A stretch of 64,000 nt of DNA from an alpha proteobacterium BAL199 (lineage in GTDB: Bacteria > Pseudomonadota > Alphaproteobacteria > Thalassobaculales > Thalassobaculaceae), in NCBI GenBank assembly GCA_000171835.1, contig ABHC01000009.1, positions 124,001-188,000 on the forward strand, in the 5' to 3' direction. Position numbers and translations under genes: made by a program. Of the stretch, positions 5,527 to 56,509 are shown in pieces; position 1 is the first letter of the stretch, and the number at the start of each line of letters is the position of its first letter. A model generated the notes under the pieces. It ran no database searches, was not told the DNA's origin, and was given only the letters and a program-made list of their open reading frames with translations.

Positions 5527-7191
5527 CTAGTTGTCGGCCGCCTTCAGCACCCGGCCCTGCTTGGCCAGTTCGGCGCGCTCGGCCAGCAGCTTGTCGAGCC
5601 AGTCCGGGTCCATCTCGGGGATCGAGGACAGTAGCAGGTCGGTGTAGTCGTGGTGCGGCGGCTTGAACATTTCCGACTTCGGGCCGCTCTCCACCACCTT
5701 GCCCTGGTGCATCACCACCACCTCGTCGGCGATCGCGCGCACGGTGGCGAGGTCGTGGGTGATGAACATGTAGCTGAGGTTGAACTCGTCCTGCAGGCGA
5801 TCGAGCAGCTTCAGGATCTCCTCGGCGACCAACGGATCCAGGGCCGAGGTAACCTCGTCGCACAGGATCACTTCCGGCTCGGCGGCCAGCGCACGGGCGA
5901 TGCAGATCCGCTGCTTTTGCCCGCCCGACAGCTCGCCCGGCAGCCGGTCGATGAAGGTGTCGGGCTCCATCTCGATCATGTTCAGTAGGTCGCGCACCCG
6001 CTCGCGCTTCTTCGCACCAGTCAGGCCGAGATAGAACTCAAGCGGCCGGCCGATCACGTCGCGCACCCGTTGCTTGGGGTTCAGGGCGGTGTCGGCCATC
6101 TGGTAAATCATCTGCAGGCGGCGTAGCTGGTCCTTGCTGCGCTGGTTGAAGCGCCCGGGCAACGGCTCGCCCTTGTACAACACCGAGCCGGACTTGATCG
6201 GCAGCAGGCCGGTGATGACCCGCGCCGCCGTCGACTTGCCCGACCCGGACTCGCCGACCACCGCCACCGTGCGCTTGCGGTGAATCGCGAACGACACGTC
6301 GTGCAGGATCATGGTCTGGCCGTATCCGGCGGTGACACCGCGCATCTCCAGCACCGGGACGGCGTCGGCGGCGTGGCCGCGCTCCTTGACGTGGAACCGG
6401 CGGACCTCCAGCAGGTCTCGGGTGTACTCCTCCTGCGGGTCGGACAGCAGCTCGCGGGTCTCGCCTTCCTCGACCAGCAGGCCGTGGCGCAGCACCATGA
6501 TCCGGTCGGCCATCTGGGCGACCACGGCCAGGTCGTGAGTGATGTAGATCGCCGCCGCCCCGAACTGCTTGACCGCATCGCGGATCGCCGCCAGCACCTC
6601 AATCTGGGTGGTGACGTCGAGCGCCGTGGTCGGCTCGTCGAAGATGATCAGATCGGGCCGGCACGACATCGCCATCGCCGTCATCGCCCGCTGCAGCTGG
6701 CCGCCCGACACCTGGTGCGGGTAGCGGAAGCCGATGGTCTCGGGATCCGGCAACTGCAGCTTCTCGAACAGGGTGATGGCGTCGCTCTCGGCCTCGGCCC
6801 GGCCCATGACGCCGTGCTGGACCGGCGCCTCGCTGTACTGGTCGATCAGACGGTGCGCCGGGTTGAAGGCGGCCGCAGCACTCTGAGCCACGTAGGCGAT
6901 CCGGTTGCCGCGCAACTCGCGCGTCGTGCTGGTCGACGCCTCGCGCAGTTCACGACCGTCGAACTCGATGGTGCCGGCGGACAAGCGGCAGCCGTCGCGG
7001 GCAAACCCCATCGCGGCGAGGCCGATGGTCGACTTTCCAGCGCCGGACTCGCCGATCAGCCCGAGAACCTCCCCGCGCTTCAGGTCGAGGTCGATGCCGT
7101 GGACGATCTCGGCCCACCCCTCTTCAGTCTGGCCCTCGATCTTCAGGCCGCGAATGCGCAGCAGCAGGCCGTCATCGGGTTCGTCGGTCAT
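5527..7191 (-). CDS. Peptide/Opp-type ABC transporter, fused double ATPase
   Basis: A single 554-residue polypeptide carries two ABC ATPase domains that are separate DppD and DppF proteins in many bacteria. The first half has Walker [10 protein letters not shown] (near residue 48), signature [10 protein letters not shown] and Walker [12 protein letters not shown]. The second has Walker [10 protein letters not shown] (near 318), signature LSGGQKQR and Walker [12 protein letters not shown]. It powers import through the two permeases encoded immediately upstream, overlapping the nearer one by four bases (7188-7191). Such fused ATPases are common in alphaproteobacterial oligopeptide, glutathione and opine systems. 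It acts on the cytoplasmic face of the inner membrane. Confidence 0.95.
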
Positions 7192-8030
7192 TCCTTCAAC
7201 CCACTCGTCTCGTGCAGGAACCAGTCCACCACGAAGTTGATGGCCACCGTCAGCAAGGCGATGGCCGCCGCCGGGATCACCGGCGTGATGTCGCCGTAGG
7301 AAATCAGCGTGGCGTTGTCCCGAACCATGCTGCCCCAGTCGGCGGTCGGCGGCTGCAGACCGAGACCGAGGAAGCTGAGCGCGCTGATCGTCAGGAACAC
7401 GAAGCAGAAGCGCAGCCCGAACTCAGCCGCCAGCGGCGCCGAGATGTTCGGCAAGATCTCGCGGCGCATGATCCACCACAGCCCCTCGCCGCGCAGCCGA
7501 GCCGCTTCGACGAAGTCCATGACCACCACGTTCATCGCCACCGCACGGGTCAGGCGGAACACCCGCGTGGAATCCAGCACCGCGATCACCAGGATCATGT
7601 TGATCAGGTTGGTGCCGACGATGGTCAGGATCAGCAGGGCGAACACCAGCGGCGGGATCGCCATCATGACGTCGACCACCCGGCTGAGCACCTGGTCGGC
7701 CCAGCCGCGCAAGGTCGCCGCCAGCAGCCCGGCGATGCTGCCGATCAGGAAGGCCAGCATGGTGGTCGCGAACGCCACCCCGACGGTGTTTCGGGCACCG
7801 TAGATGATCCGGCTCAGCATGTCGCGGCCGAGACTGTCGGTGCCGAGCGGGTAGACCGCGTTCCACGGCTCGTACTCGATGCCGACGATCTCGGTCTCGC
7901 CGTACGGCGCGATCAGCGGGGCTCCCAGCGCAGTGGCCACGTAGATCAGGATGACCAGCATCCCGAACCGAGCGCTCCACGGGCTGCGTCCCAGCAGCTT
8001 CAATGAATTCTGAGCAGCCGTCGCCATCAC
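7188..8030 (-). CDS. ABC transporter inner-membrane permease, DppC-like
   Basis: The 280-residue polytopic protein contains an N-terminal cytoplasmic tail and hydrophobic helix (residues 20-40), the [18 protein letters not shown] segment typical of DppC/OppC, and the EAARLRGEG coupling region that contacts the ATPase. It forms the permease heterodimer with the gene one base upstream. Its end overlaps the fused ATPase start by four bases, indicating translational coupling. Confidence 0.94.
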
Positions 8031-8031
8031 G

Positions 8032-8988
8032 TCACCTCGGGTGCAGAAGGCGTGGGTTGCTGAGGATCGACAGGATGTCGGCCAGCAAATTCAGCAGGAT
8101 GTAGGTCACTGCGAAGATCAGGCAGGCCGCCTGCACCACCGGGATGTCGCGCTTGGACACCGAGTCGATCATCAACTGCCCAAGCCCCGGATAGACGAAC
8201 ACCACCTCGACCAGCACCACCCCGACCACCAGGTAGGCGAGGTTGATGGCGATCACGTTGATGATCGGCGACAGGGCGTTCGGCAACGCGTGCCGCACGA
8301 TGATCCGCGAACGGGTCAGGCCCTTCAGGCTCGCCATTTCAATGTACGGACTGGCCATCAGATTGATGATGGCGGCCCGGGTCATCCGCATCATGTGCGC
8401 CGTCGTCACCATGGTCAGGGTCACGGCCGGCAGGATGCAGCGGTACACCCGCTCCCAGAACGGGGTATCGGAGTTCACGTTGACGATCGAGGGAAACCAG
8501 TCCCACTGCACCGCGAACAGGAAGATCAGCGCGTAGGCGATGAAGAACTCGGGAAACGAGATCGAGCTGAGCGTCACCAGGTTGATGCCGCGGTCGAACC
8601 AGCTGTTGCGGTACAGCGCCGCCAGAAGACCAAGCGTCACGGCCAGCGGCACCGCGATGATCGCGGCGAAACTGGCGAGGAACAGCGTGTTCATCAACCG
8701 TCCGCCGATCAACTCGGCGATGTCCCGCTTGCTGGCCAGTGACCGGCCCAGATCGCCCTGGGCGATGTCGCCGAGCCACGCGAGGTAGCGCAGGTGTGCC
8801 GGCACGTCGAGGCCAAGCTCGCGCCGGAAGGCCGCCACCGTCTCCGGCGTAGCCCCCTGGCCGAGAATCGCTTCGGTGATGTCGCCCGGCAGCATCTCCA
8901 CCGACAGGAAGATGATCAGCGAAACGATGAACAAGGTCAGGAGGCCCAGCGCCAAGCGCTGGGCCACCATTTTCAGGATCGGCCCCAC
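8032..8988 (-). CDS. ABC transporter inner-membrane permease, DppB-like
   Basis: The 318-residue permease begins with a membrane helix (RLALGLLTLFIVSLIIFL) and has the DppB/OppB pattern of a large first periplasmic loop (LPGDITEAILGQGATPE) and a C-terminal half with EMASLKGLTRSRI, the ATPase-coupling loop. It is the partner of the DppC-like subunit one base downstream. The substrate-binding protein gene ends 23 bases upstream, so the four transporter genes form one operon. Confidence 0.94.
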   Translation of the reverse strand: MGPILKMVAQRLALGLLTLFIVSLIIFLSVEMLPGDITEAILGQGATPETVAAFRRELGLDVPAHLRYLAWLGDIAQGDLGRSLASKRDIAELIGGRLMNTLFLASFAAIIAVPLAVTLGLLAALYRNSWFDRGINLVTLSSISFPEFFIAYALIFLFAVQWDWFPSIVNVNSDTPFWERVYRCILPAVTLTMVTTAHMMRMTRAAIINLMASPYIEMASLKGLTRSRIIVRHALPNALSPIINVIAINLAYLVVGVVLVEVVFVYPGLGQLMIDSVSKRDIPVVQAACLIFAVTYILLNLLADILSILSNPRLLHPR

Positions 8989-9011: not shown

Positions 9012-10598
9012 TCAGGCGAACCACCAACGCTCGGACGCCTTCATGCCGTCCAGATCCCAGTTGCCGGCCATCTTGTCGTGGGTCAGATCGTCCGACGAAG
9101 CGCCGACATAGTTCGCGAACATCGGAACGACAACGCCGCCTTCGTCGCGAACGATAAGCTGCATGTCCTTGTACAGCTCAGTGCGCTTGGCTTCGTCGAG
9201 TTCAACGCGCGCTGCCACCAGAAGCTGGTTGAACTTCTTGTTGTCCCAGAACGTGTCGTTCCAGGCGACACCGGCCTCGTAGGCCGTGGAGAACATCCAG
9301 TCGGCCGTCGGCCGACCGCCCCAATAGCAGGCGCCCCACGGCTTCTTCATCCAGACGTTCGACCAATAGCCGTCGTTCGGCTCGCGAACCACGTTGATGG
9401 TGATGCCGGCCTTGGCTGCGTGCTCCTTGTAGAGAACCGCCGCGTCGACCGCGCCGGCAAAGGCCGCATCCGCCGCCGACAGATCGATCGTCAGCCCCTC
9501 GGCCCCACCCTTCTTCAGGTGGAACTTGGCTTTTTCCGGATCGTAGGCGCGCTGCTCCAACTCGACATAGAAGCTGGTCGACGGGGCGATCGGGGTGTCG
9601 TTTCCGACCATGCCATGACCGCGCAGGACCTTCTTGACCATCTCCTCGCGGTCGACCGCGAGCTTCAGCGCCATGCGGACATCGTTGTTGTCGAACGGCG
9701 CCTGCGTCGTGATCATCGGGAAGGTGTAGTGCTGCGAACCGGTGACCTCGAAGATGTTCACCTTCTTGTTTCGCTGCAGCAGATGCACGGTCTTCAGGTC
9801 GCACCGATCCATCAAGTGGATCTCGCCGGTGGTCAGCGCGTTGGTACGCGCTGCAACGTCGACGATCGACAGCACCTCAATGCTGTCGAAATGCGCACGC
9901 CCGCTCTTCCAGTAGCTTGGATTGCGCTCGAGGTAGGCGCGCACGCCCGGCTCGAACTTCTTCACCACATAGCCGCCGGTACCGGTGCCCGACTGCCAGT
10001 CGACGGTGCCGTCGCCCTTCGAGGGCATGATCGCGATATGGTAGTCGCTGAGCAGATACGGCAGGTCGGCATTGCCGCTTTCCAGCGTCATGACCACCGA
10101 ATCACCGTCGGCCTTGAGCGTTGTGATCGGCGCCAGCAGCGGCTTGGCCGGCGACTTCGAGTCCGGCCCCCGATGATGGTTGATCGAATCGATGACATCC
10201 TCGGTCGTCAGCGCCTTGCCGTTGTGGAACGTCACACCCTTGCGGATCTTGAACGTCCAGGTCTTGGCATCCGGCGTGGCGTTCCAGCTCTCGGCCAGTT
10301 CGCCGACCAGCTTTCCGCTGTTGTCGATCTCGGTCAGGCAATTGCGCATGCAGCCGAAGCCGACGAACTGCATGTAGCTGTCGGTGAAGGTCGCCGGATC
10401 GAAGGTGTCGGAGGTCGATCCCGCCCCGATCGCCACCTTGAGCGCGCCACCCTTCTTGGGCGTCGCCGCAAAGGCCGATCCGCCGAACATCCGTTCGGCC
10501 GCGCCAACCGCACCCAGGGCCGCTGCCCCCTTGATCAAGCCCCGTCGGTCAATCTGCCCCATAGACCGCAGCAGCGAGAGTTCGTCGCGTGTCGTCAT
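9012..10598 (-). CDS. Periplasmic substrate-binding protein of the peptide-type ABC importer
   Basis: The start at 10598 is chosen because AGGAG lies eight bases upstream and the protein then begins with a recognisable export signal. A longer in-frame extension upstream (49 codons) lacks both. The signal contains a twin-arginine motif (DRRGLIKGAAALGA, about residues 18-31) and a likely AFA-A cleavage site, so Tat export is probable. The mature part is an SBP_bac_5 protein with SWNATPDAKTWTFKIRKG and FHNGKALTTEDVI, typical of DppA/OppA. It is about 528 residues long, the usual size. The ligand could be a peptide, an opine-like compound or a quaternary amine given the adjacent carnitine genes. 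Confidence 0.93.
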   Translation of the reverse strand: MTTRDELSLLRSMGQIDRRGLIKGAAALGAVGAAERMFGGSAFAATPKKGGALKVAIGAGSTSDTFDPATFTDSYMQFVGFGCMRNCLTEIDNSGKLVGELAESWNATPDAKTWTFKIRKGVTFHNGKALTTEDVIDSINHHRGPDSKSPAKPLLAPITTLKADGDSVVMTLESGNADLPYLLSDYHIAIMPSKGDGTVDWQSGTGTGGYVVKKFEPGVRAYLERNPSYWKSGRAHFDSIEVLSIVDVAARTNALTTGEIHLMDRCDLKTVHLLQRNKKVNIFEVTGSQHYTFPMITTQAPFDNNDVRMALKLAVDREEMVKKVLRGHGMVGNDTPIAPSTSFYVELEQRAYDPEKAKFHLKKGGAEGLTIDLSAADAAFAGAVDAAVLYKEHAAKAGITINVVREPNDGYWSNVWMKKPWGACYWGGRPTADWMFSTAYEAGVAWNDTFWDNKKFNQLLVAARVELDEAKRTELYKDMQLIVRDEGGVVVPMFANYVGASSDDLTHDKMAGNWDLDGMKASERWWFA

Positions 10599-10799
10599 TC
10601 TCAGATCTCCTTTTTGCAGCGACCCGACTGTCGTCAGGTCAGCCGTCTTTTTGAGTATGCGAACCGGTCGGCCAAACGGCCGTTCCGATGTGTCGCTTTC
10701 TCGATAACTTGTGCCGAACAGTACCACCGTTGCCAGAAGGTTCAACTGTGGACGGTACGGATGGCGAACCGGACGACTATATGGTTCAGCCGAAAACCG

Positions 10800-11780
10800 C
10801 TACTGAGAGCGGGTTTCGCGCCAGCGGGCGACCTCGATCCCGGCGCCGATCCCTTGACTTTCGAGAGCTTGGAGGATGGCCACCAGCGCATCGTCGCGGG
10901 TCCGCTCCATCTCGCGAACCGACCGCCCGGCGGCTTGCTGTTCGGTCTGCTCCGACACTCGGTCGATGAGTTCGTCGGTCAGTTCCGGTGCTTCGAGTTT
11001 CGTCCACGGTAGTTTCAGGGCCGGCCCGAACTGGGCCATGAAATGCCGCATCCCGGCCTCGCCGCCGGCCAGCCGATAGATCCCGAACGTGCCCATAAAC
11101 GCCCAACGCAGACCGGCGCCATAGCACACGGCCCGGTCGATCTCCTCGGTCGTCGCCACCCCGTCGTTCACCAGGTGCAGGGCCTCGCGCCACAGCGCCT
11201 CAAGCAGCCGGTCGGCGATGAACCCGTCGATCTCGTTGCGGACCACCAGCGGATGCATGCCGATCGACGCGTAAAACGCCGACGCCGCCTCGATCGTTTC
11301 CGCACTCGTCGACTTCCCGCCGCAGACTTCGACCAGCGGCAGCAGGTACACCGGGTTGAACGGGTGCCCGACTACAACCCGTTCGGGAAACCGGCAATCA
11401 GCCTGGAGCACGCTCGGCAGCAGGCCGGACGTGCTGGTCGCCACGATCACGCCGGCCGGCGCCACCGCGGCGGCGCGAGCCAGCAGGCCACGCTTCAGAT
11501 CCTCACGCTCCGGTGCGCTCTCCTGGACAAAGTCGGCCCCATCGACCGCGTCCTCCACCGACTCCGAAAAGACAACCATGCCCCGACGGTCCGGCTCGTC
11601 GGGAAACAGGCGCCGAAGCGCCCGTTCGGCATTGGCGAGCACGGTCTCGGTCTTGCGCCGAACCTCCGGGTCGGGATCGGCGATCGCTACGTCGATACCG
11701 TTCTCGATCAGCCTCGCCGCCCAGCCCGCCCCAATCACCCCGGCGCCGAGCAGAGCAACCTTTCGTACCGGTGTCGTCAC
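10800..11780 (-). CDS. L-carnitine dehydrogenase-like 3-hydroxyacyl-CoA dehydrogenase family protein
   Basis: The 326-residue protein has an N-terminal Rossmann fold (LLGAGVIGAGW, glycines at 12, 14 and 17) and NAD-selecting acidic residues after it (IADPDP). The catalytic region VVGHPFNPVYLLPLVEV is shared by 3-hydroxyacyl-CoA and carnitine dehydrogenases. The adjacent BKACE gene argues for carnitine dehydrogenase, which oxidises L-carnitine to 3-dehydrocarnitine. In several rhizobia the enzyme carries a C-terminal thioesterase domain of about 150 residues; that domain is absent here. It lies 10 bases downstream of the BKACE gene and 201 bases upstream of the ABC importer operon. The equivalent gene in Pseudomonas is cdhA. 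Confidence 0.82.
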   Translation of the reverse strand: MTTPVRKVALLGAGVIGAGWAARLIENGIDVAIADPDPEVRRKTETVLANAERALRRLFPDEPDRRGMVVFSESVEDAVDGADFVQESAPEREDLKRGLLARAAAVAPAGVIVATSTSGLLPSVLQADCRFPERVVVGHPFNPVYLLPLVEVCGGKSTSAETIEAASAFYASIGMHPLVVRNEIDGFIADRLLEALWREALHLVNDGVATTEEIDRAVCYGAGLRWAFMGTFGIYRLAGGEAGMRHFMAQFGPALKLPWTKLEAPELTDELIDRVSEQTEQQAAGRSVREMERTRDDALVAILQALESQGIGAGIEVARWRETRSQ

Positions 11781-11790
11781 GACAATCTCC

Positions 11791-12684
11791 TCAGGAAGGA
11801 GTGCGCAGCGCTAGCCGGGCTCGGACCTCCGCCGGACCAAGTGGGCGAGCGCCCATCCGCACCAGAATCCCCAGCGCCCGCTCCACGAGCTGCCCGTTGG
11901 ACGCGAACACTCCACGATCGAGGTACAAATTGTCCTCCAGCCCGACCCGGATGTTCCCCCCGGCCAGCGCCGCAGCGGCCACCCAGGGCATCTGCATCCG
12001 GCTGATGCCGAACGAACTCCACACCGATCCGGCGGGCAGGCGGTTCACCATCGCCAGCAGGGTGCCAAGGTCGGAGGGCGCGCCATAGGGGATCCCGGTG
12101 CAGAGTTGTACCAACGGAACGCCCTCGATCAGGCCTTCATGGACCAGCCGCTCGACGAACCAGAGGTGGCCGGTGTCGAACACCTCCAACTCGGGCTTCA
12201 CTCCCAGTTCCTTGATGCGCGCGGCCTTGGCCCGCAGCATATCCGGCGTGTTCACGACGATGAAATTGCCATCGCCGAAATTCATCGACCCACAATCGAG
12301 GGTGCAGATCTCCGGGCGCAGCGCTTCGATGTGTTCCAGCCGTTCCATCGGCCCGACCATGTCGGTGGTCCGCTGATCCAGCGCCAACGGCGCCTCGCCG
12401 GCACCGAAGCCAAGATCCCCACCCATGCCCGCCGTCAGGTTCAGGACAACGTCGACTCCGGAATCCCGCACTCGCTCAACCACCTCGCGATACAACTCGA
12501 GCCGCCGGCTGCCGAGGCCGGTATCCGGTTCCCGCACGTGAATGTGCGCGACGGCGGCCCCCGCCCGAGCCGCCTCGATGGCGGCAGAGGCGATTGCCTG
12601 AGGAGTGGTAGGCAGATTCGGATGCTTTCCGGCCGTATCACCCGCTCCAGTGACCGCGCATGTCACGAAGGGTTCGAAGTTCAT
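11791..12684 (-). CDS. BKACE-family enzyme, probable 3-dehydrocarnitine cleavage
   Basis: This 297-residue TIM-barrel protein belongs to the beta-keto acid cleavage enzyme family (DUF849). The zinc ligands are visible as HIHVRE (residues 46-51) and in GLEDNLYL near residue 257. The N-terminal sequence [10 protein letters not shown] followed by HPNLPTTP is the form seen in CdhC proteins, which condense 3-dehydrocarnitine with acetyl-CoA to give betainyl-CoA and acetoacetate. A carnitine dehydrogenase-like gene follows after 10 bases. The betainyl-CoA thioesterase (CdhB) expected in the pathway is not seen in the window. Some BKACE members act on other beta-keto acids, so the substrate rests on context. 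Confidence 0.84.
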
Positions 12685-12723
12685 GGGGTGCTCTCCGGTT
12701 AACGGCGTACTACCCGCGCGCAG

Positions 12724-13977
12724 TCAGCTCATCGCGGGACCGATCGACAGTCCATCCGGACGCGGCAGCTCCAAAATCTCGGTCTCCGGATTTGTTCGAG
12801 CAGTCTCTTCCGCCGGCAGCCAGACCGTCACCGTCGTACCCTCGTTCAACCTGCTCTCAAAGTCGAGCCGGCCACCGTGCGCATTGACCAGCATTCTGAC
12901 CAACGACAGCCCAAGACCCGAGCCGCCCACCGCCGGCAGCTCGCGCTCATGAGCGCGGTAGAATGGCTCAAAAATCCGCGACAGATCGCTCGCGCCGACC
13001 CCATAGCCGCGATCGACGACCCTGATCAGGGTACCGTCGGCGTCGTGCTCAGCGCGGATCACCACTGACGTCCCTTTCGGGGAATACTTCAGCGCGTTGG
13101 AAATCAGACTGTTCAGAATGGTGGCGAGCGATCTGCGGTCGGCCCAGACCTGCATTCCGGCGGGCACCTCGGATGCCTGCACCGTTGAACGCAACCGGTC
13201 GATCACCTCCGTGCAGACCGAGGCAAGGTCCTGGCGCTCTTGGGCCAAGGCGTCGGCCCCTGCACTCAGATGCTCAAGATCCAGGATGTCGGTGATCTGT
13301 TCCAGCAACTGGGCCGATGCCGCCTGGATGCTCGCGCAATACTCGAGTTGCTTGCCTACCAAGGTGCCTCCAATGCCTGCGCTCAGCATCTCGCCGAAAC
13401 CGATGATCGCGTTCAAAGGCGTGCGCAGCTCGTGGCTCATGCGCGCCATGAAATCCGCTTTGACGCGCTCGGCTTCACGCGCCTCATACACGGCGGCGAT
13501 CAGCCGGGTGTTGGCCGACGACAGTTCATTTGTCCGTTCGGCCACGCGCTGTTCCAGCACGCTGTTCAGCCGTCGCAACTCGTCGTTAGCCGCCGTCATT
13601 TCAGCCTGGCTGGGCGTCGCCAGTACCAAGTGGAGGATTCGCCAGACCAGCGCTGCCGTGATGATCGACACCGCCGCGCAGACGATCTTCACGAAACCCG
13701 ACAGGACATACCAAGGCAGCCAGAGCGTAACGATCGTCGACACATGGGTCGCGGCGCACAAGATGATGAATGCGGCAAACCAGTACAGAACCCCGAACGG
13801 ATTCAGGTCCGGCCGCTGCCGGCCGACCACCGCCAACGCCGCGGGAATCGCGAGATAGGCAAGCGCAATGGAAGCGTCCGCGATCAGATGCAGCCAGATC
13901 AGCCCAGGATCCCAGAGCAAGCAATAACCGTGTGGGGTAACGCCATCGGTCGGGAAAATCACGTCGAGTAGCGCCAT
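12724..13977 (-). CDS. Sensor histidine kinase with ethylene-receptor-type transmembrane domain
   Basis: The start at 13977 has AGGGAG eight bases upstream. The 417-residue product has three membrane helices (about residues 24-46, 60-80, 90-112). They carry Asp34, Tyr41, Ile44, Pro45, Ile71, Cys74 and His78, the same residues at the same spacing as plant ETR1 Asp25, Tyr32, Ile35, Pro36, Ile62, Cys65 and His69, which bind Cu(I) and ethylene. There is no GAF domain: a coiled coil (about 125-165) leads straight to a HisKA domain ([15 protein letters not shown], phospho-His 182) and an HATPase_c domain (about 280-400, with GSGLGLSLVRML). No response regulator is adjacent. The BKACE gene follows after 39 bases, so co-transcription is possible. 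Ethylene binding is inferred from residues, not shown. Confidence 0.88.
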   Translation of the reverse strand: MALLDVIFPTDGVTPHGYCLLWDPGLIWLHLIADASIALAYLAIPAALAVVGRQRPDLNPFGVLYWFAAFIILCAATHVSTIVTLWLPWYVLSGFVKIVCAAVSIITAALVWRILHLVLATPSQAEMTAANDELRRLNSVLEQRVAERTNELSSANTRLIAAVYEAREAERVKADFMARMSHELRTPLNAIIGFGEMLSAGIGGTLVGKQLEYCASIQAASAQLLEQITDILDLEHLSAGADALAQERQDLASVCTEVIDRLRSTVQASEVPAGMQVWADRRSLATILNSLISNALKYSPKGTSVVIRAEHDADGTLIRVVDRGYGVGASDLSRIFEPFYRAHERELPAVGGSGLGLSLVRMLVNAHGGRLDFESRLNEGTTVTVWLPAEETARTNPETEILELPRPDGLSIGPAMS

Positions 13978-14098
13978 GGGCGTTCTCCCTTCGGCCGACA
14001 CACGCTTTTCGTGCACCGCCGTAGTATGGCTTACATCGTCCGGCTCCGCGAGACATCCGGCGAATTTCCATATCTCTATAAAACAATATTTTAAATGG

Positions 14099-15683
14099 TT
14101 AAGAGCCTGTTGCTGAATGAGTCTGGCTTGACGGCATGAAGCAGCTATCCGGTGATTTTGCCCTCAGACGGCATTTTTCTTGTCCAATTGCTTCAGTTCA
14201 AGAGCCATTTTCCACCCTTTCTTCCTCTGCGGACGGACTCCGAGTGTAGTTTTTTGATGTTGTGGGCGGCGCAGTGCAGGTTCCATTCACCCTGGGTCTC
14301 CTGCTCCCCGCGCATCATGAATCCGTCTGCGCCCTGGGTCTCCTTCATTTGCCCGAACACCGGTTCCACGGTCTGGCCGCGCAGCCGGTAAAGTTTTCGG
14401 CCCCGTTGGGTCAGGAGCTTACGCTCCATCTGGTCACGGGCACTCATGTCCCTGGGTATACGGCCCCGGGGTGGTGGAGCATCACGCATCGCCTTGCGCT
14501 GCTTCCAATCCTTAGTGGTGGCGATCAGGTATTCGCATTCCGCTGTTTCCGTGGCCGCGTTCTCGTCAGACCAATAGCCCGCGTCAAACAGGCCAACCCC
14601 CAGCACCGCCTCGTCGCCGGTCACCGCCTCCATCATCGTCAGGGTCCGGGCAATCATCGGGGCCAGTTGGCGAACGTCGTTGGCCTGGTTCGTCACATCG
14701 GTGGCGAGGATGATCTGGTCCGCCGTCACCACCGCCTGGGCATTGTACCCCTGGAGATATCCCTTGCGGCTCTTCATGATCCGGCTGTCCGGGTCGCTCA
14801 CGTTGGCCTTGGCCTCTTCCTTGACAACCGCCTCGGCTGTCTTCGGCTTCCGCCCGCGTTTGGCTTTTCCGTTCGCCTTTTCCTCGGCAATCCGGGCGTT
14901 GATCTTCTCCTGCTGCTCGACCCGTTGATGGTCGGCTTCGCGCAAGAGACGTTCATGACAGGAGCGAAGACGGGACAGCCGATCTGACGGCTTCCTCAGC
15001 CCGACGGGAACATCGTCACCTCGGCCCTCCCCGAACATCCCGTCCTCGGCGGCATCGATCGCCTCGGCCTCCGACAGCATGGCGGCAACCTCCGCCTCCA
15101 GGGACTTCGAGGTCTGGTTCGCCGCAAGCGACGCATTTGCCTTCACCTTGGTCCCATCCAGCGCCACCACGCCCAACCGCACCAGCCCCGCCGCATGACA
15201 CAGCTTCAGGACCTCCACGAACAGGGTCTCCAGGTCGCCCCGGTGCCGCTTGCGGAACCGCGCTATCACGCTGTGGTCGGGAACCTCGGCGCACACGATC
15301 GTCCGAAACCCAGCATCCCGCACGCACAGGCGCTCGATCTTGCGGCTTGAGCGTTGCCCGTTCGCATACGCATAAACAAGGAGACTAACCATCATCCTCG
15401 GCGCGAACGGTGGCGCTCCCGACCCACGCTTCCGGTAGTGCGTCTCGAATGCCGATAGATCCATCAAACCCACGGCATCCAGAAGAAGGTGCACGAGGTC
15501 TGTGTCCGGAACCCAATCCGCCATGTCCACCGGCAGAAGAAACCGCTGCCTACGATCTGGTTCTCGGTAAAAATTTGCCATCTCCCCCCCCTTCAAATTG
15601 CCTCTCCCAACGGAATCAGGACCCCGTCAGTGGGTCAAGCGGAGATCGTCGGTGGAACCGGTGATTCTGCAACAGCCTCTTAA
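14099..15683. mobile_element. IS1182-family insertion sequence with TTAA target duplication
   Basis: The element spans 14103-15679 (1577 bases). Its ends form imperfect inverted repeats, GAGCCTGTTGCTGAATGAG on the left and the complement of ATTCTGCAACAGCCTC on the right, matching in about 15 of 19 positions. TTAA flanks it on both sides (14099-14102 and 15680-15683), the expected duplicated target. It carries one intact transposase gene. It landed about 120 bases upstream of the ethylene-receptor-like kinase gene, inside its upstream region, and about 240 bases before malate synthase G. Intact ends and gene suggest a fairly recent insertion. Confidence 0.9.
14193..15581 (-). CDS. IS1182-family transposase
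   Basis: The 462-residue transposase starts at the ATG at 15581 (MANFYREPDRRQRFLL), the usual family start; a TTG five codons upstream is possible. The acidic triad of the DDE nuclease is visible in VVALDGTKVKANAS, GLFDAGYWSDENA and GQTVEPVFGQMKE. A basic, helical insertion lies between the first two. The family's usual length is 450-500 residues and there is no frameshift, so the protein is probably functional. Confidence 0.93.
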   Translation of the reverse strand: MANFYREPDRRQRFLLPVDMADWVPDTDLVHLLLDAVGLMDLSAFETHYRKRGSGAPPFAPRMMVSLLVYAYANGQRSSRKIERLCVRDAGFRTIVCAEVPDHSVIARFRKRHRGDLETLFVEVLKLCHAAGLVRLGVVALDGTKVKANASLAANQTSKSLEAEVAAMLSEAEAIDAAEDGMFGEGRGDDVPVGLRKPSDRLSRLRSCHERLLREADHQRVEQQEKINARIAEEKANGKAKRGRKPKTAEAVVKEEAKANVSDPDSRIMKSRKGYLQGYNAQAVVTADQIILATDVTNQANDVRQLAPMIARTLTMMEAVTGDEAVLGVGLFDAGYWSDENAATETAECEYLIATTKDWKQRKAMRDAPPPRGRIPRDMSARDQMERKLLTQRGRKLYRLRGQTVEPVFGQMKETQGADGFMMRGEQETQGEWNLHCAAHNIKKLHSESVRRGRKGGKWLLN

Positions 15684-15923: not shown

Positions 15924-18098
15924 ATGGTGGAACGGGTCGAGATCGGTGGTCTGAAGATTGCGAAATCTCTGTATGATTTCGCCAACGCCGAGGCTCTGCC
16001 CGGCACCGGAATTGCGCCCGCGACATTCTGGGCGACAGCCGACGCCATCATCCACGATCTCGCCCCGAAGAACGCCGCCCTGCTGGCCGAGCGTAAGACG
16101 CTACAGGTCAAGATCGACACCTGGCACATGGAACGCCGCGGCACTCTGCTCGACCTGGACGCCTACAAGTCCTTTCTGAAAGAAATCGGTTACCTCGTCG
16201 AGGAAGGTCCGAACTTCCAGATCGCCACATCCAGCGTCGACGCAGAGATCGCCACCATCGCCGGGCCACAGTTGGTCGTGCCGGTAATGAACGCCCGCTA
16301 CGCACTGAACGCCGCCAACGCCCGCTGGGGCAGCCTTTACGATGCGCTGTATGGCACGGATGCGATTGCCGACGACGGCGATGCAGAACGTACCAACGGC
16401 TACAATCCGGCACGCGGCGCCAAGGTGATCGCTTGGGCGCGCGGCTTCCTGGAGAAGGCGGCACCGCTTGCCACTGGCAACTATGCCGATGCGATCAAAT
16501 ACGCCGTGGTCGACGGGAGGCTGTCGATTGCACTGAACGACGGCAGCAGCACCGGTTTGGCACAGCCAGAGCGCTTCGTCGGCTACAGCGGTCCAGCCGA
16601 TGCGCCGACCGGCATCCTGCTGAAGAACCACGGCCTGCATGCCGAGATCGTGATCGACCGCAGCCACCCGATCGGCAAGACCGATCCGGCGGGGGTCGCA
16701 GATCTGGTGATGGAGTCGGCGATCACCACCATTATGGACTGCGAGGACTCGGTCGCAGCGGTCGATGCCGAGGACAAGGTCCTGGTCTACCGGAATTGGC
16801 TCGGCCTGATGAAGGGCAACCTGATCGAGGCGTTCCAGAAGGGTGGCAAGACCATCGAACGCCGCCTGAATCCAGACCGGACCTACACCGCCCCGGACGG
16901 CTCGACCCTCAGCCTGCACGGTCGCTCGCTGATGCTGGTCCGCAACGTCGGCCACCTGATGACCATCGACGCAATCCTGGACAAGAACGGCAAGGAGGTG
17001 CCCGAAGGCATTCTCGATGCGCTGTTCACCTCAATGATCGCCAAGCACGATCTGCTCGGCAAAAGCGACCGGCGCAACTCGCGGGCCGGCTCGGTCTACA
17101 TCGTGAAGCCGAAGATGCACGGCCCCAAGGAAGTCGCCTTCGCCGATGAGCTGTTCGCACGGGTCGAGGACGGCCTCGGCCTCGGCCGCAATGTCCTGAA
17201 GATGGGCATCATGGACGAGGAGCGGCGGACCACCGTTAACCTGAAGGAATGCATCCGCTCCGCCCGCGAGCGGGTGGTGTTCATCAACACCGGCTTCCTC
17301 GACCGCACCGGCGACGAGTTGCACACCTCGATGGAGGCCGGCCCGATGATCCGCAAGGCCGACATGAAGGCGTCCGCTTGGATCGGCGCCTACGAGGCCT
17401 GGAACGTCGACATTGGCCTGACCTGCGGGCTGACAGGCAAGGCGCAGATCGGCAAGGGCATGTGGGCGATGCCGGACTTGATGGCCGCCATGCTGGAGCA
17501 GAAGATCGGCCATCCCAAGGCCGGTGCCAACACCGCATGGGTCCCGTCGCCGACCGCTGCCACCCTGCACGCCACCCACTATCATGAGGTCGACGTGGCG
17601 GCCCGCCAGGCCGAGTTGCGAAGCCGGGCCCGTGCCAAGCTGGACGACATCCTGACCATCCCGGTTGCCGCCCGCCCGAACTGGACCGCGGCCGACATCC
17701 AGGCCGAGCTCGACAACAACGCTCAGGGCATTCTTGGCTACGTGGTGCGCTGGGTCGATCAGGGTGTCGGCTGCTCGAAGGTGCCGGACATCAACAACGT
17801 CGGCCTGATGGAGGACCGCGCCACCCTGCGGATCTCCAGCCAGCACATCGTCAACTGGCTGCACCACGGGGTGTGCAGCGAGGCCCAGGTGATGGAGACC
17901 ATGAAGCGGATGGCCGCCGTGGTCGACAAGCAGAACGCCGGTGACCCGGCCTACCGCCCGATGGCACCGAGTTTCGACAGCAGCGTGGCGTTCCAGGCAG
18001 CCTGCGACCTGGTGCTCAAGGGCCGTGAACAGCCGAGCGGCTACACCGAGCCGGTCCTGCACCGCCGCCGCATCGAGGCAAAGGCCGCCACGGGCTGA
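15924..18098 (+). CDS. glcB: Malate synthase G
   Basis: The 724-residue protein has the length of malate synthase G, which condenses glyoxylate with acetyl-CoA to malate in the cytoplasm. Conserved segments include [17 protein letters not shown], the [12 protein letters not shown] block, [13 protein letters not shown] (Mg and glyoxylate site) and [22 protein letters not shown] near the C terminus, which holds the catalytic Asp. AGGAG lies eight bases before the ATG. A sulfotransferase-like gene follows after 26 bases. No isocitrate lyase is in the window; glyoxylate could come from glycolate or from the aminotransferase-type pathways nearby. The IS1182 element lies upstream and may alter its promoter. 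Confidence 0.97.
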
Positions 18099-22475: not shown

Positions 22476-23834
22476 CTACAGCGCTTGCCTGCGGTACCGG
22501 GCCGGGTCGATGCCGTGGCGCTGCATCTTCTCGTACAGAGTCTTGCGGCCGATTCCGAGGCGTTGGTGTGCGTCGGTCACCGAGCCGTCCGTCTCTGACA
22601 GCGCCGCCTCGATCACCGCTTTTTCGAAGCGGTCGACCTGGGCTGACAAGCCTTCGCGGGATCCCGGGTCGGGTGTGTCGACACCTCCGTCCATCAGCGG
22701 ATCCAGCCCGATGACGGCTCGTTCGGCAGCATGCTGCAGCTCGCGCACATTACCCGGCCAGCGGTGTGTTCGCAGGCGCGACGACAGACCGGGATCGATC
22801 GGGCCGACATCGACTGCGTGCCTGGCGGCGTAGCGGTGACGGAAATGTTCGAACAAAATAGGGATGTCCTCGGCGCGGTCGCGCAGCGCCGGGATCGCGA
22901 TCGGTGCGACGGCGAGGCGGTAGTACAAGTCTTCGCGGAACCCGCCGCGCTCGGCTTTCTGCAGAAGGTCTTCCTTGGTCGCGGCGATCACCCGCACATC
23001 GACCGGAACCGGGACGTTGGAGCCGACCCGCTCGATCGCGCGCTCTTGCAGTACCCGCAGCAGCCGGACCTGGGAGTCCAGCGGCATCGACTCGATCTCG
23101 TCCAGGAACACCGTTCCACCCTTGGCAAACTCAAACCGGCCGATCCGACGACGCTGGGCACCGGTGAAAGCCCCCGCTTCGTGCCCGAACAACTCGCTCC
23201 CGATCAGAGTCTCCGGCAGCGCCCCGCAATTGATGGCAACGAACGGGCCGGAAGCCCGGTCGCTGGTCTGGTGCAGAGTGCGCGCCACCAGTTCCTTGCC
23301 GGCCCCGGTCTCCCCGGTGATCAAGACATCGACCCGGCGCGGACCGATCGAGCGGATCAGGCGGCGCAGAGCTTCGATCCGGGTCGACGCGCCGATGATC
23401 GCCGCCGCGGGATCCGAGGCCGTGCCGGCAGGGCGCTGCAAGGCCCTCAGCTCCTGGACCAACCGCCGCTTCTCCAGCGCGTGCGTGACCGTGAGAACCA
23501 GTTGCGCCGGATCGAACGGCTTCTCCAGGAAATCGTATGCGCCCGCGCGCATCGCCTCCACCGCGAGGGGAACATCGCCGTGGCCGGTCATCAGGATCAC
23601 CGGCAAATCCCGGTCGGCCGTCTGCACGGCCCGCAGCAGCGCGATGCCGTCAAGGCCCGGCATCCGGATATCGGTCACGACGATGCCGTTGGTGTCGGGG
23701 CCGAGCCACTTGACCACGGCGTCGGCGCGTTCGCTCGTCTCGACGCGCAGTCCCGCCAGTTCGAGCGACTGGGCGCAGGAGTGCAGCACGTCGGAGTCGT
23801 CGTCGATCAGGATCACCGTGCCGGTCTCGATCAC
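22476..23834 (-). CDS. dctD: Sigma-54-dependent response regulator, DctD family
   Basis: The 452-residue protein has three domains. The receiver (1-125) carries the acidic pocket DDDS and the phospho-acceptor in VVTDIRMPG. The AAA+ domain (about 150-380) has Walker A GETGAGKE, GAFTGA for sigma-54 contact, and Walker B GGTVFLDEIES. A Fis-type helix-turn-helix closes the protein (VTDAHQRLGIGRKTLYEKM). Its start overlaps the end of dctB by four bases. It likely activates dctPQM through the promoter at 22287-22301 when phosphorylated by DctB. Confidence 0.95.
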   Translation of the reverse strand: MIETGTVILIDDDSDVLHSCAQSLELAGLRVETSERADAVVKWLGPDTNGIVVTDIRMPGLDGIALLRAVQTADRDLPVILMTGHGDVPLAVEAMRAGAYDFLEKPFDPAQLVLTVTHALEKRRLVQELRALQRPAGTASDPAAAIIGASTRIEALRRLIRSIGPRRVDVLITGETGAGKELVARTLHQTSDRASGPFVAINCGALPETLIGSELFGHEAGAFTGAQRRRIGRFEFAKGGTVFLDEIESMPLDSQVRLLRVLQERAIERVGSNVPVPVDVRVIAATKEDLLQKAERGGFREDLYYRLAVAPIAIPALRDRAEDIPILFEHFRHRYAARHAVDVGPIDPGLSSRLRTHRWPGNVRELQHAAERAVIGLDPLMDGGVDTPDPGSREGLSAQVDRFEKAVIEAALSETDGSVTDAHQRLGIGRKTLYEKMQRHGIDPARYRRQAL

Positions 23835-25606
23835 TCCGCCGCCTCCGCCTGGCTCGCGTGCAGGGTCAACCGGAACACCGCTCCGCCGCGCGGCGCATCG
23901 CCAACGGTGAGCGTGCCGCCCATGTCGCGCATGATCGAGTACGCGATCGACAGACCAAGGCCAAGTCCGGCCCCCGGCTCTTTGGTGGTGTACATCGGCT
24001 CGAAGATCCGGTCGCGACTGTCGGCCGGGACGCCCGGGCCGCTGTCGGCCACCGAGATCTCCACGACGTCCCCGGTGTCGACCGCGTCGAGCACGATCCA
24101 GCGTTCGCTCCCGCCGGCAACCGCGTCGAGAGCGTTGGTCAGCAGGTTTACGAACACCTGCTCAAGGCGCACCGGATCAGCGCGCACTGATATGCCCGAA
24201 ATGCCCGAACCCACCCGGATCGACACCGACGCATCGCGCGCCTGATGGGCCACCAGCTGCAGGGCGGGCTGTACCACCGCCACCAGGGGTGTGTGCCCGA
24301 GCGTCAACCGGCCCTTGCGGGCGAACGCCTTAAGGTGACGAATCAGACGATTGGCACGCTCGGTAACCTCGGCGATGGTCTGCAGGTTCGCCTGGACCGC
24401 CTCCATCCGACCGGCGGCGAGCAGCTTCAGGGTGTTGTCGGCATAGGAACGGATAGCGGTGATCGGCTGGTTCAGCTCGTGGCCAAGACCGGTCAGCATC
24501 TGGCCCAGCGCCGCCATCTTCTCGGCCTGGACCAGTTCGTCCTGGGCCATCGCCAGATCGGCGGTGCGCTCCTCCACCCGGCGCTCCAGGTCGGCGGCGG
24601 CGCGCTGCAGGGCAATCCGGCTGCGCTCCTCCAGCTCCAGCTTCTCGCGCATGGCCCGGCGGCGCTGCACCGAAGCCCACAGCGCACCGGCAAGCGCCAG
24701 CAGCGCGACCCCGGCGATCAGCGTCACCGCCAGGATCTGGGCCTCAGCCGCGGCCGTGCCGGCCAGCATCACCGCCGTCCAGCCGGCGTCCGGCATGTCC
24801 TGGCGCAACCGCAGGAACCGTCCCGGCGTATCGCCGCCCAGCGTGACGATCGGGACCTCGACGCCGCGTTTGCCAGTGTCGGAGATCGGCAGGGGAGCAC
24901 GGTCGATCCGGTCATACCGTCGGGTCTGCGACAACCGCGCGCGATCGCTGTCGACCAAGGGCCGCGTTGACCGGAACAGCCAGTCGGGCCGGTCCGACAT
25001 GAAGACCATGCGGGCGTCGTCGACCACCAGCATGTGGTCGCTGGGGCCGTGCCAGACCCGCTCCATGTCCTCGACGTCGACCTTCACCGCCAACACGCCC
25101 ACCGCCTCGCCATCGCGGCGGACCGGGTAGGCGAAGTAGTAGCCGCGCTTGTTGGACGTGGTCCCGAGCGCGAAGAACCGGCCCAGCCGACCCTGCATCG
25201 CCTCGATGAAATACGGCCGGTACGCGAAATTCTGGCCGACGAAGGTCGGACGATCGTTCCAGTTGCTGGCGGCGATCGTGGTGCCGTCGCCGTCCATCAC
25301 GTAGACGTCCGACGCACCGATCACCCGGGCGGTGCGCACATACAACCGGTTGGCCGTCGCGACCGCGTCCGGGGTCGGGCCGCGGTCTCCGAACAGGTCC
25401 CTGGTCACCGGATGCTCGGCCAGCACCACCGGCTGGGAACGGAACTTGTCGAGTTGCCCGCGCAGGGTCGCAACATACAGGTCCAGGGTGGCCCGGCTCT
25501 GCACCTCCAGCTGGTCGTACACCAGGTGCGACACGCCACGATGGATGGCCAGCAGGGCTACCATCAGCACCAGGGCCCAGATCGGAATCAGGATCGGTCG
25601 CGTCAC
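23831..25606 (-). CDS. dctB: C4-dicarboxylate sensor histidine kinase, DctB family
   Basis: The 591-residue membrane kinase has two membrane helices (about residues 5-25 and 275-297) bracketing a double-PAS (dCache-like) periplasmic sensor. The sensor includes the NRPTFVGQNFAYRPYF segment and GRFFALGTTSNKRGYYFA, which line the dicarboxylate pocket in DctB proteins. A coiled coil leads to the phospho-acceptor box GLGHELNQPITAIRSY and to an HATPase_c domain with GAGLGLGLSIAYSI. It overlaps dctD by four bases and is presumed to sense external succinate or malate. Confidence 0.94.
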   Translation of the reverse strand: MTRPILIPIWALVLMVALLAIHRGVSHLVYDQLEVQSRATLDLYVATLRGQLDKFRSQPVVLAEHPVTRDLFGDRGPTPDAVATANRLYVRTARVIGASDVYVMDGDGTTIAASNWNDRPTFVGQNFAYRPYFIEAMQGRLGRFFALGTTSNKRGYYFAYPVRRDGEAVGVLAVKVDVEDMERVWHGPSDHMLVVDDARMVFMSDRPDWLFRSTRPLVDSDRARLSQTRRYDRIDRAPLPISDTGKRGVEVPIVTLGGDTPGRFLRLRQDMPDAGWTAVMLAGTAAAEAQILAVTLIAGVALLALAGALWASVQRRRAMREKLELEERSRIALQRAAADLERRVEERTADLAMAQDELVQAEKMAALGQMLTGLGHELNQPITAIRSYADNTLKLLAAGRMEAVQANLQTIAEVTERANRLIRHLKAFARKGRLTLGHTPLVAVVQPALQLVAHQARDASVSIRVGSGISGISVRADPVRLEQVFVNLLTNALDAVAGGSERWIVLDAVDTGDVVEISVADSGPGVPADSRDRIFEPMYTTKEPGAGLGLGLSIAYSIMRDMGGTLTVGDAPRGGAVFRLTLHASQAEAAE

Positions 25607-30310: not shown

Positions 30311-32725
<2,415 letters not shown>

Positions 32726-36440: not shown

Positions 36441-37256
36441 GGTGTTGTCACGTTAACTCGTCGAGTTAGCAAGTTGGCATGCCGGTCGTTGATCAAGCGG
36501 CATGTGCCGCGGATTTCCAAGCTTCGAACGCTTCGAGCCGATGGTAGCGAATGGTGAGGGCGGAACGACGGCGGGCTGGGACAGAGTAACGATTGCGGGT
36601 TGCGGATTGCATAGACACGAAGCGTTGTAATCCACCCGGTGATCGGAAGCCTTGCATCACCCGCTCTCGTTTTCGGAAGGGCAAGTGGCTGTTCTCGGCG
36701 CGGTTATTGAGCCCCTTGTGTGACCAATGATCAAGGCCAGGCGCGACCTCGCGCTTGGCGGCCCCATATGAGCGCAGTTTGTCCGTAATGATCCTTTTGG
36801 GCACGAAGCCCCAACGTTTCATCAGCTTGATCAAAAGCCGCTTTGCAGCGCGCTTGTCTCGCTTCGATTGTAAGATTTCCTCAAGAACGACACCGTGTTG
36901 GTCGACGGCGCGCCACAGCCAGTATGACCGGCCCGCGATCTTCACGACGACTTCGTCCAGATGCCAAACATCACCAGGGCGAGGCTGCCGTCGCCGCAGA
37001 ACGTGGGCGATCCGGGGACCGAACTTGACGGTCCAGCGCCGGATCGTCTCATACGAAACGTCCACACCACGTTCCAGCATAAGCTCCTCGACCTCGCGCA
37101 GGCTCAAGTTGAACCGGGCGTAGAGCCAGACAACATGAGAAATAATCTGAGGCGGAAAGCGGTGGCGCTTGTAGCTGATTTTCTCTGTTTGCATCGACAC
37201 CGCCTACGCCCGGATCATTGAACCCGCAACCTCAGGCACGTTAACGTGACAACACC
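36441..37256 (-). mobile_element. IS6-family insertion sequence, copy B
   Basis: The full-length 816-base copy is inverted relative to copy A and has the same 17-base terminal repeats. A seven-base direct repeat, CTTCGAG, touches both ends (36434-36440 and 37257-37263). The right copy lies inside truncated copy C, while the left one lies in unrelated DNA. It differs from copies A, C and D by at least one silent base at 37144. Confidence 0.9.
36493..37200 (-). CDS. IS6-family transposase, copy B
   Basis: The protein is identical in translation to copy A (235 residues, same DDE residues). A single silent change, ATT for ATC, occurs in the PQIIS segment. It is intact and preceded on its coding strand by the tail of the copy C frame, which ends four bases upstream of this start. 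Confidence 0.93.
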   Translation of the reverse strand: MSMQTEKISYKRHRFPPQIISHVVWLYARFNLSLREVEELMLERGVDVSYETIRRWTVKFGPRIAHVLRRRQPRPGDVWHLDEVVVKIAGRSYWLWRAVDQHGVVLEEILQSKRDKRAAKRLLIKLMKRWGFVPKRIITDKLRSYGAAKREVAPGLDHWSHKGLNNRAENSHLPFRKRERVMQGFRSPGGLQRFVSMQSATRNRYSVPARRRSALTIRYHRLEAFEAWKSAAHAA

Positions 37257-37926
37257 CTTCGAGCCGATGGTAGCGAATGGTGAGGGCGGAACGACGGCGG
37301 GCTGGGACAGAGTAACGATTGCGGGTTGCGGATTGCATAGACACGAAGCGTTGTAATCCACCCGGTGATCGGAAGCCTTGCATCACCCGCTCTCGTTTTC
37401 GGAAGGGCAAGTGGCTGTTCTCGGCGCGGTTATTGAGCCCCTTGTGTGACCAATGATCAAGGCCAGGCGCGACCTCGCGCTTGGCGGCCCCATATGAGCG
37501 CAGTTTGTCCGTAATGATCCTTTTGGGCACGAAGCCCCAACGTTTCATCAGCTTGATCAAAAGCCGCTTTGCAGCGCGCTTGTCTCGCTTCGATTGTAAG
37601 ATTTCCTCAAGAACGACACCGTGTTGGTCGACGGCGCGCCACAGCCAGTATGACCGGCCCGCGATCTTCACGACGACTTCGTCCAGATGCCAAACATCAC
37701 CAGGGCGAGGCTGCCGTCGCCGCAGAACGTGGGCGATCCGGGGACCGAACTTGACGGTCCAGCGCCGGATCGTCTCATACGAAACGTCCACACCACGTTC
37801 CAGCATAAGCTCCTCGACCTCGCGCAGGCTCAAGTTGAACCGGGCGTAGAGCCAGACAACATGAGAAATGATCTGAGGCGGAAAGCGGTGGCGCTTGTAG
37901 CTGATTTTCTCTGTTTGCATCGACAC
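37204..37926 (-). CDS. IS6-family transposase with replaced C terminus, copy C
   Basis: The frame matches the family transposase through YHRLE and then, instead of the last dozen or so native residues, reads across the junction into copy B's end, adding about 17 foreign residues ([17 protein letters not shown]). The catalytic residues Asp82, Asp140 and Glu169 remain. The element has only one end, so it cannot move alone, but the enzyme might act on the other copies. Confidence 0.85.
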   Translation of the reverse strand: MSMQTEKISYKRHRFPPQIISHVVWLYARFNLSLREVEELMLERGVDVSYETIRRWTVKFGPRIAHVLRRRQPRPGDVWHLDEVVVKIAGRSYWLWRAVDQHGVVLEEILQSKRDKRAAKRLLIKLMKRWGFVPKRIITDKLRSYGAAKREVAPGLDHWSHKGLNNRAENSHLPFRKRERVMQGFRSPGGLQRFVSMQSATRNRYSVPARRRSALTIRYHRLEGCCHVNVPEVAGSMIRA

Positions 37927-55693: not shown

Positions 55694-56509
55694 GGTGTTG
55701 TCACGTTAACGTGCCTGAGGTTGCGGGTTCAATGATCCGGGCGTAGGCGGTGTCGATGCAAACAGAGAAAATCAGCTACAAGCGCCACCGCTTTCCGCCT
55801 CAGATCATTTCTCATGTTGTCTGGCTCTACGCCCGGTTCAACTTGAGCCTGCGCGAGGTCGAGGAGCTTATGCTGGAACGTGGTGTGGACGTTTCGTATG
55901 AGACGATCCGGCGCTGGACCGTCAAGTTCGGTCCCCGGATCGCCCACGTTCTGCGGCGACGGCAGCCTCGCCCTGGTGATGTTTGGCATCTGGACGAAGT
56001 CGTCGTGAAGATCGCGGGCCGGTCATACTGGCTGTGGCGCGCCGTCGACCAACACGGTGTCGTTCTTGAGGAAATCTTACAATCGAAGCGAGACAAGCGC
56101 GCTGCAAAGCGGCTTTTGATCAAGCTGATGAAACGTTGGGGCTTCGTGCCCAAAAGGATCATTACGGACAAACTGCGCTCATATGGGGCCGCCAAGCGCG
56201 AGGTCGCGCCTGGCCTTGATCATTGGTCACACAAGGGGCTCAATAACCGCGCCGAGAACAGCCACTTGCCCTTCCGAAAACGAGAGCGGGTGATGCAAGG
56301 CTTCCGATCACCGGGTGGATTACAACGCTTCGTGTCTATGCAATCCGCAACCCGCAATCGTTACTCTGTCCCAGCCCGCCGTCGTTCCGCCCTCACCATT
56401 CGCTACCATCGGCTCGAAGCGTTCGAAGCTTGGAAATCCGCGGCACATGCCGCTTGATCAACGACCGGCATGCCAACTTGCTAACTCGACGAGTTAACGT
56501 GACAACACC
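55694..56509 (+). mobile_element. IS6-family insertion sequence, copy D
   Basis: The full-length 816-base copy has the same 17-base terminal repeats as copies A and B and the same orientation as A. The flanking octamers (CTACCAAC left, TGCCGAAC right) do not match, so its two sides were brought together by recombination rather than one insertion. It forms the right boundary of the rearranged island. Confidence 0.92.
55750..56457 (+). CDS. IS6-family transposase, copy D
   Basis: The translation is identical to copy A (235 residues; Asp82, Asp140, Glu169). It is intact. Confidence 0.94.
   Translation: MSMQTEKISYKRHRFPPQIISHVVWLYARFNLSLREVEELMLERGVDVSYETIRRWTVKFGPRIAHVLRRRQPRPGDVWHLDEVVVKIAGRSYWLWRAVDQHGVVLEEILQSKRDKRAAKRLLIKLMKRWGFVPKRIITDKLRSYGAAKREVAPGLDHWSHKGLNNRAENSHLPFRKRERVMQGFRSPGGLQRFVSMQSATRNRYSVPARRRSALTIRYHRLEAFEAWKSAAHAA

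Follow-up and report, generated by a model that had tools for sequence, protein, structure and literature searches.

An ETR1-type histidine kinase without GAF or PAS domains and its gene neighbourhood in the alphaproteobacterium BAL199

Results

The kinase gene and its domain layout

The window, the whole 64,000-nucleotide stretch of the BAL199 genome that was analysed, carries on its reverse strand (12724..13977) an open reading frame encoding a histidine kinase of 417 aa, whose boundaries, strand and length are as called in the original prediction, made from the letters alone. The start codon (ATG at 13977) is backed by a conserved block directly upstream on the same strand (13978..14048), comprising the ribosome-binding site and leader, which is kept in two congeners: Thalassobaculum fulvum KCTC 42651 (G001) and the metagenome-assembled genome (MAG) Rhodospirillaceae M30B52 (G002). 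A consensus promoter scan of the kinase region gave no match and fewer than in shuffles, and is thus uninformative for this GC-rich genome.

The encoded protein is, as had been predicted, an ethylene-receptor-like histidine kinase. Based on Pfam, it consists of an ETR1_N membrane domain (PF25487; residues 26-120, 13618..13902; E 2.6e-26, 92.1 bits versus a curated cut-off of 27), a HisKA dimerisation and phosphoacceptor domain (residues 173-240, 13258..13461) with the putative phospho-acceptor H182 within SHELRTPLN, and a HATPase_c domain (residues 280-390, 12808..13140). The H, N, G1, F and G2 boxes are all intact, and the H182 site shows no variation in an alignment of nine orthologues. Neither GAF nor PAS was detected by a Pfam scan of the 417 residues; instead, a predicted coiled-coil helix (residues 124-164, 13486..13608) leads from the membrane domain directly to HisKA, in agreement with the layout originally proposed. 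This kinase is the single ETR1_N gene in the 6.1 Mb genome.

Residues 1-165 were modelled using AlphaFold2 (49 sequences; mean pLDDT 90) as a monomer built without copper. In the model, the three predicted transmembrane helices that characterize an ETR1-type domain (24-54, 60-86 and 90-120) run on into the single long helix of the coiled coil. Searches of solved structures with the membrane domain, by sequence or by fold, found no solved ethylene-binding domain: the sole sequence match in the PDB was a chance one to a cytochrome oxidase subunit, and by fold nothing was found at E <= 0.001, the weak matches being generic membrane helices.

Residues of the predicted copper/ethylene site

All seven predicted residues of the ETR1 Cu(I)/ethylene site were found in the translated kinase (D34, Y41, I44, P45, I71, C74 and H78), with 40 residues from Asp to Cys and 4 from Cys to His. 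Identical spacing follows from the numbering of ETR1 (D25, C65 and H69) and AzoEtr1 (D35, C75 and H79; PMC11819568), the comparison with ETR1 being one of residue numbers and spacing. In the predicted model, C74 and H78 are one turn apart on helix 2 and D34 is on helix 1; moreover, K97 corresponds to the helix-3 lysine that has been linked to output (PMC11819568).

Substitutions at the seven positions in close orthologues, named in the original prediction as evidence that would count against it, were looked for, and neither these residues nor K97 vary in the nine orthologues. Among 49 membrane domains these eight positions are almost invariant, with no variation at D34, I44, C74 and H78 and very little at Y41, P45 and I71, and all seven site residues are kept in 23 of the 31 aligned ETR1_N proteins of a survey of the class. 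The copper-ligand cysteine is lost in four ETR1_N proteins (L044, L045, L047 and L050), some of which are also devoid of other binding residues; judging from these replacements, the four probably do not bind ethylene. The loss of the cysteine in members such as L044, L045 and L050 shows that the site can disappear in this family, which makes its presence in the window kinase informative. The invariance of the residues reflects selection on the site; that ethylene is the ligand does not follow from it.

Orthologues and known members of the family

Full-length orthologues of the kinase were found in the two congeners, T. fulvum (locus L092; 65% identity) and MAG M30B52 (L091; 69% identity), both with the architecture of the window protein, as well as in genus g12 (three genomes) and genus g5 (two genomes) of the same family, at ~50% identity, and in another family, at 39% identity. 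Of 385 genomes sampled from the class, 28 carry ETR1_N, and many homologues come from bacteria without an obvious plant host. Among the 31 homologues of the class survey PAS is common, the direct membrane-to-kinase layout recurs and just one protein has GAF; thus, the absence of GAF, originally put forward as a special feature, is ordinary for the class. The kinase falls into an established bacterial family of wide occurrence, outside the GAF-containing plant/cyanobacterial sub-architecture of ethylene receptors, and a review has already noted such domains, with diverse outputs, in many proteobacteria (PMC7700396).

AzoEtr1 of Azospirillum brasilense Sp7 (L090:3989-5566), likewise from an alphaproteobacterium, shares with the window kinase all seven residues, the PHGxCLxW entry motif and HisKA plus HATPase_c, with 35% identity over the N-terminal 155 residues (membrane domain and linker). 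Yet AzoEtr1 is 525 aa long, with PAS (not GAF) as its intermediate domain and an overlapping downstream response-regulator gene that was described earlier (PMC11819568) and is also seen at L090, whereas the window kinase has neither PAS nor an adjacent regulator. Residues 1-130 of AzoEtr1 bind ethylene, as does SynEtr1, cited in the same paper (PMC11819568). SynEtr1 (slr1212) of Synechocystis, compared here by its published description, similarly joins an ethylene-binding membrane domain to a kinase (PMC7700396, PMC6682694), but it has PAS and a chromophore-binding GAF, through which it senses light (PMC7700396) and is thus a dual light/ethylene sensor, and it has slr1213 as its neighbour. Arabidopsis ETR1/ERS1 resemble the window kinase in the seven residues at the same spacing and in three membrane helices that lead into the kinase region. 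Plant ethylene receptors contain a GAF domain and act through CTR1, and ETR1 has a receiver domain in addition.

BKACE, dehydrogenase and transporter genes downstream

Downstream of the kinase, on the same strand, lies a gene for a BKACE-family beta-keto acid cleavage enzyme of 297 aa (11791..12684), whose identity is unambiguous (Pfam 7.8e-93) and which starts, as predicted, 39 bases after the kinase stop; this gap (12685..12723) harbours no terminator-like site. After 10 further bases follows a 3HCDH-family dehydrogenase (10800..11780). It had been called a carnitine dehydrogenase, and carnitine dehydrogenases are indeed its closest families, but both curated cut-offs are missed (412.7 bits versus 414 for the L-carnitine dehydrogenase profile, and 437.6 versus 592 for that of carnitine 3-dehydrogenase); going by the profiles, carnitine as a substrate label for the two genes is uncertain. 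About 200 bases beyond, and also on the reverse strand, begins an ABC transporter of family 5 (peptide/opine/nickel type), with a solute-binding protein identified by profiles (9012..10598; its start re-set to ATG 10598 by homology with T. fulvum) and two permeases plus a double ATPase (5527..8988; open reading frames, Pfam and synteny). As a conserved, promoter-like non-coding block (10671..10746; TTGAAC-n17-TACTGT) precedes the transporter in the alignment of the window genome (G000) and T. fulvum, the transporter genes probably form a separate transcript with its own promoter. Read-through from the kinase into BKACE and the dehydrogenase is plausible.

The two catabolic genes recall the caiX-cdhCAB-hocS carnitine operon of Pseudomonas aeruginosa, where BKACE-type and carnitine-dehydrogenase-type genes also stand in tandem. 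That operon has the divergent AraC-family regulator typical of carnitine operons (CdhR) and a binding protein, CaiX, that feeds CbcWV (PMC5806209), whereas the window locus has a co-directional kinase, a family-5 solute-binding protein, and neither an AraC-family regulator nor a thioesterase gene at the catabolic genes; the genome's closest AraC homologue, at 35% identity, is located elsewhere. A CdhR-type AraC/DJ-1 regulator is divergent from BKACE in genomes G003 and G036, yet the BKACE-dehydrogenase pairs of G004-G006 are likewise without an adjacent AraC gene. No relevant literature was found on ethylene receptors together with carnitine, nor anything on topic for Thalassobaculum together with ethylene. 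A second BKACE gene of the genome (G000:C67) was set aside, having different neighbours.

Of the original prediction that the sensor may be co-transcribed with betaine/carnitine catabolism, the gene adjacency holds and co-regulation is weakly supported. In T. fulvum, the one congener of the two with the BKACE-dehydrogenase pair behind its kinase, the gene order is the same and BKACE is 88% identical, the kinase-BKACE gap measuring 51 bases and being poorly conserved in sequence. Beyond these two species, the linkage was not found in MAG M30B52, the more distant orthologues or the other named homologous loci, and the transporter block has the promoter-like sequence of its own.

Malate synthase G on the other side

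On the other side of the kinase, a malate synthase G gene lies on the forward strand (15924..18098; above the NCBIfam cut-off and supported by synteny). The two are parted by an IS1182-family insertion sequence (14103..15679, reverse strand; NCBIfam 1.2e-86) that occurs ~29 times in the genome in near-identical form, a multicopy state that reflects a recent transposition burst. Elsewhere in the window, four near-identical open reading frames of 235-240 aa, all starting MSMQTEKISYKRHRFPP (31966-32673, 36493-37200, 37204-37926 and 55750-56457), two of them side by side, look like one multicopy insertion-sequence transposase.

In relatives, the kinase and malate synthase G are divergently oriented neighbours: they directly adjoin in MAG M30B52 (G002) and in three Thalassobaculum-type genomes, G026, Thalassobaculum litoreum (G030) and G034, and in the window genome and T. 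fulvum nothing but inserts parts them. The T. fulvum insert (L092 3929-7161) is a different one, with a large membrane-protein gene and an HlyD-family gene; the former appears glycosyltransferase-like by eye. An apparent move of the kinase in T. fulvum was rejected, since malate synthase G lies ~4 kb off behind the insert. Between the window and T. fulvum, the order of catabolic block, kinase, insert, malate synthase G, TRAP transporter and DctBD-type system is collinear, whereas the kinase of MAG M30B52 stands between malate synthase G and an MFS gene and lacks the catabolic block. The collinear order suggests that the link to BKACE arose in a single event in the common ancestor of the two species, or was lost in MAG M30B52. 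Malate synthase G, a gene on which the original prediction is silent, is thus the more widely conserved neighbour, although G006, G015 and the other named loci do not show the pairing.

A further malate synthase G gene stands immediately upstream of a kinase homologue in Sphingomonas sp. 28-66-16 (L125 5354-9517), where malate synthase G, the ETR1_N kinase and a single-domain response regulator follow in a row on one strand; this link is suggestive only. In Thalassobaculum-type genomes a small conserved protein of ~122 aa without a Pfam match is encoded just downstream of the kinase (L068 8894-9265 and L069 10690-11058).

Signal output

No receiver domain adjoins the kinase among the neighbouring genes inspected in the window and in same-family relatives, and the nearest receiver-domain gene of the window (22476-23834) pairs with a kinase of its own (23831-25606); hence the partner response regulator is presumably unlinked. 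An adjacent response regulator is common but not strictly required, and orphan kinases exist. Elsewhere, a small receiver-type gene was seen near the kinase in sixteen loci, mostly of sphingomonads.

Discussion

Taken together, the window gene is likely a working sensor kinase of the Cu(I)/ethylene type with an unlinked partner, behind which the catabolic genes were placed once. C74 and H78 probably coordinate Cu(I) within the three membrane helices, D34 and K97 being predicted to sit as they do in ETR1, and the ligand of the site is probably ethylene or a comparable small olefin. Its binding would alter the coiled coil and thereby change autophosphorylation at H182, from which the phosphate would pass to a response regulator with an unlinked gene. 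Placement of the catabolic genes downstream of the kinase would have happened once, in the common ancestor of the window species and T. fulvum, unless the genes were lost in MAG M30B52, and read-through may extend transcription to BKACE and the dehydrogenase. No ethylene-binding data were found in the literature for an ETR1_N member without GAF and PAS.

As the residues report a copper site and not a ligand, the domain could instead bind copper but sense another cue, such as copper level, redox state, light or another small olefin. Many homologues do come from bacteria for which no plant host is obvious, and Synechocystis Etr1 also senses light, though via its GAF (PMC7700396); the tested bacterial members, AzoEtr1 and SynEtr1, nevertheless bind ethylene (PMC11819568), and such an alternative cue appears unlikely.

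Two further readings concern the neighbours. A selected operon would likewise account for the pair kept in T. fulvum; in it, kinase, BKACE and dehydrogenase would share one transcript and the sensor would control the catabolism in place of the usual AraC-type regulator. Order and direction agree in two species although their kinases share only 65% identity, the gaps measure 39 and 51 bases, with no terminator in that of the window, and the regulator of the CdhR type seen in G003 and G036 is not beside BKACE here. Nonetheless, the linkage is missing from MAG M30B52 and other homologous loci, the gap itself is unconserved, and a histidine kinase of this kind needs a response regulator for control of transcription, with none adjacent; as the pairs in G004-G006 are also without AraC, its absence says little for a regulatory takeover by the kinase. 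Such an operon is therefore improbable, and co-regulation of the kinase with the BKACE/carnitine-type genes, resting on one linkage event, is possible. It is also rather doubtful that malate synthase G is the older functional partner, in a divergent pair tying an ethylene-type signal to glyoxylate/acetyl-CoA metabolism. The adjacency in four genomes and the Sphingomonas arrangement argue for it; however, the pairing is absent from several loci, inserts are tolerated in two species, and divergent neighbours inside one family can reflect simple shared ancestry. As it stands between malate synthase G and an acetyl-CoA-dependent beta-keto acid cleavage operon, the kinase could even be imagined as a hub of acetyl-CoA/glyoxylate carbon use in a lineage of marine alphaproteobacteria, where a gaseous olefin would switch betaine-/carnitine-type catabolism, but this is very unlikely.

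Returning to the favoured reading of an ethylene-type sensor kinase with an unlinked partner, if ethylene is bound, marine bacteria would add a minimal receptor consisting of membrane domain, coiled coil and kinase, which would be useful for structural work on how binding is passed to the kinase. Furthermore, its two-sided metabolic neighbourhood offers a concrete and cheap test of the targets of such sensors outside plant hosts.
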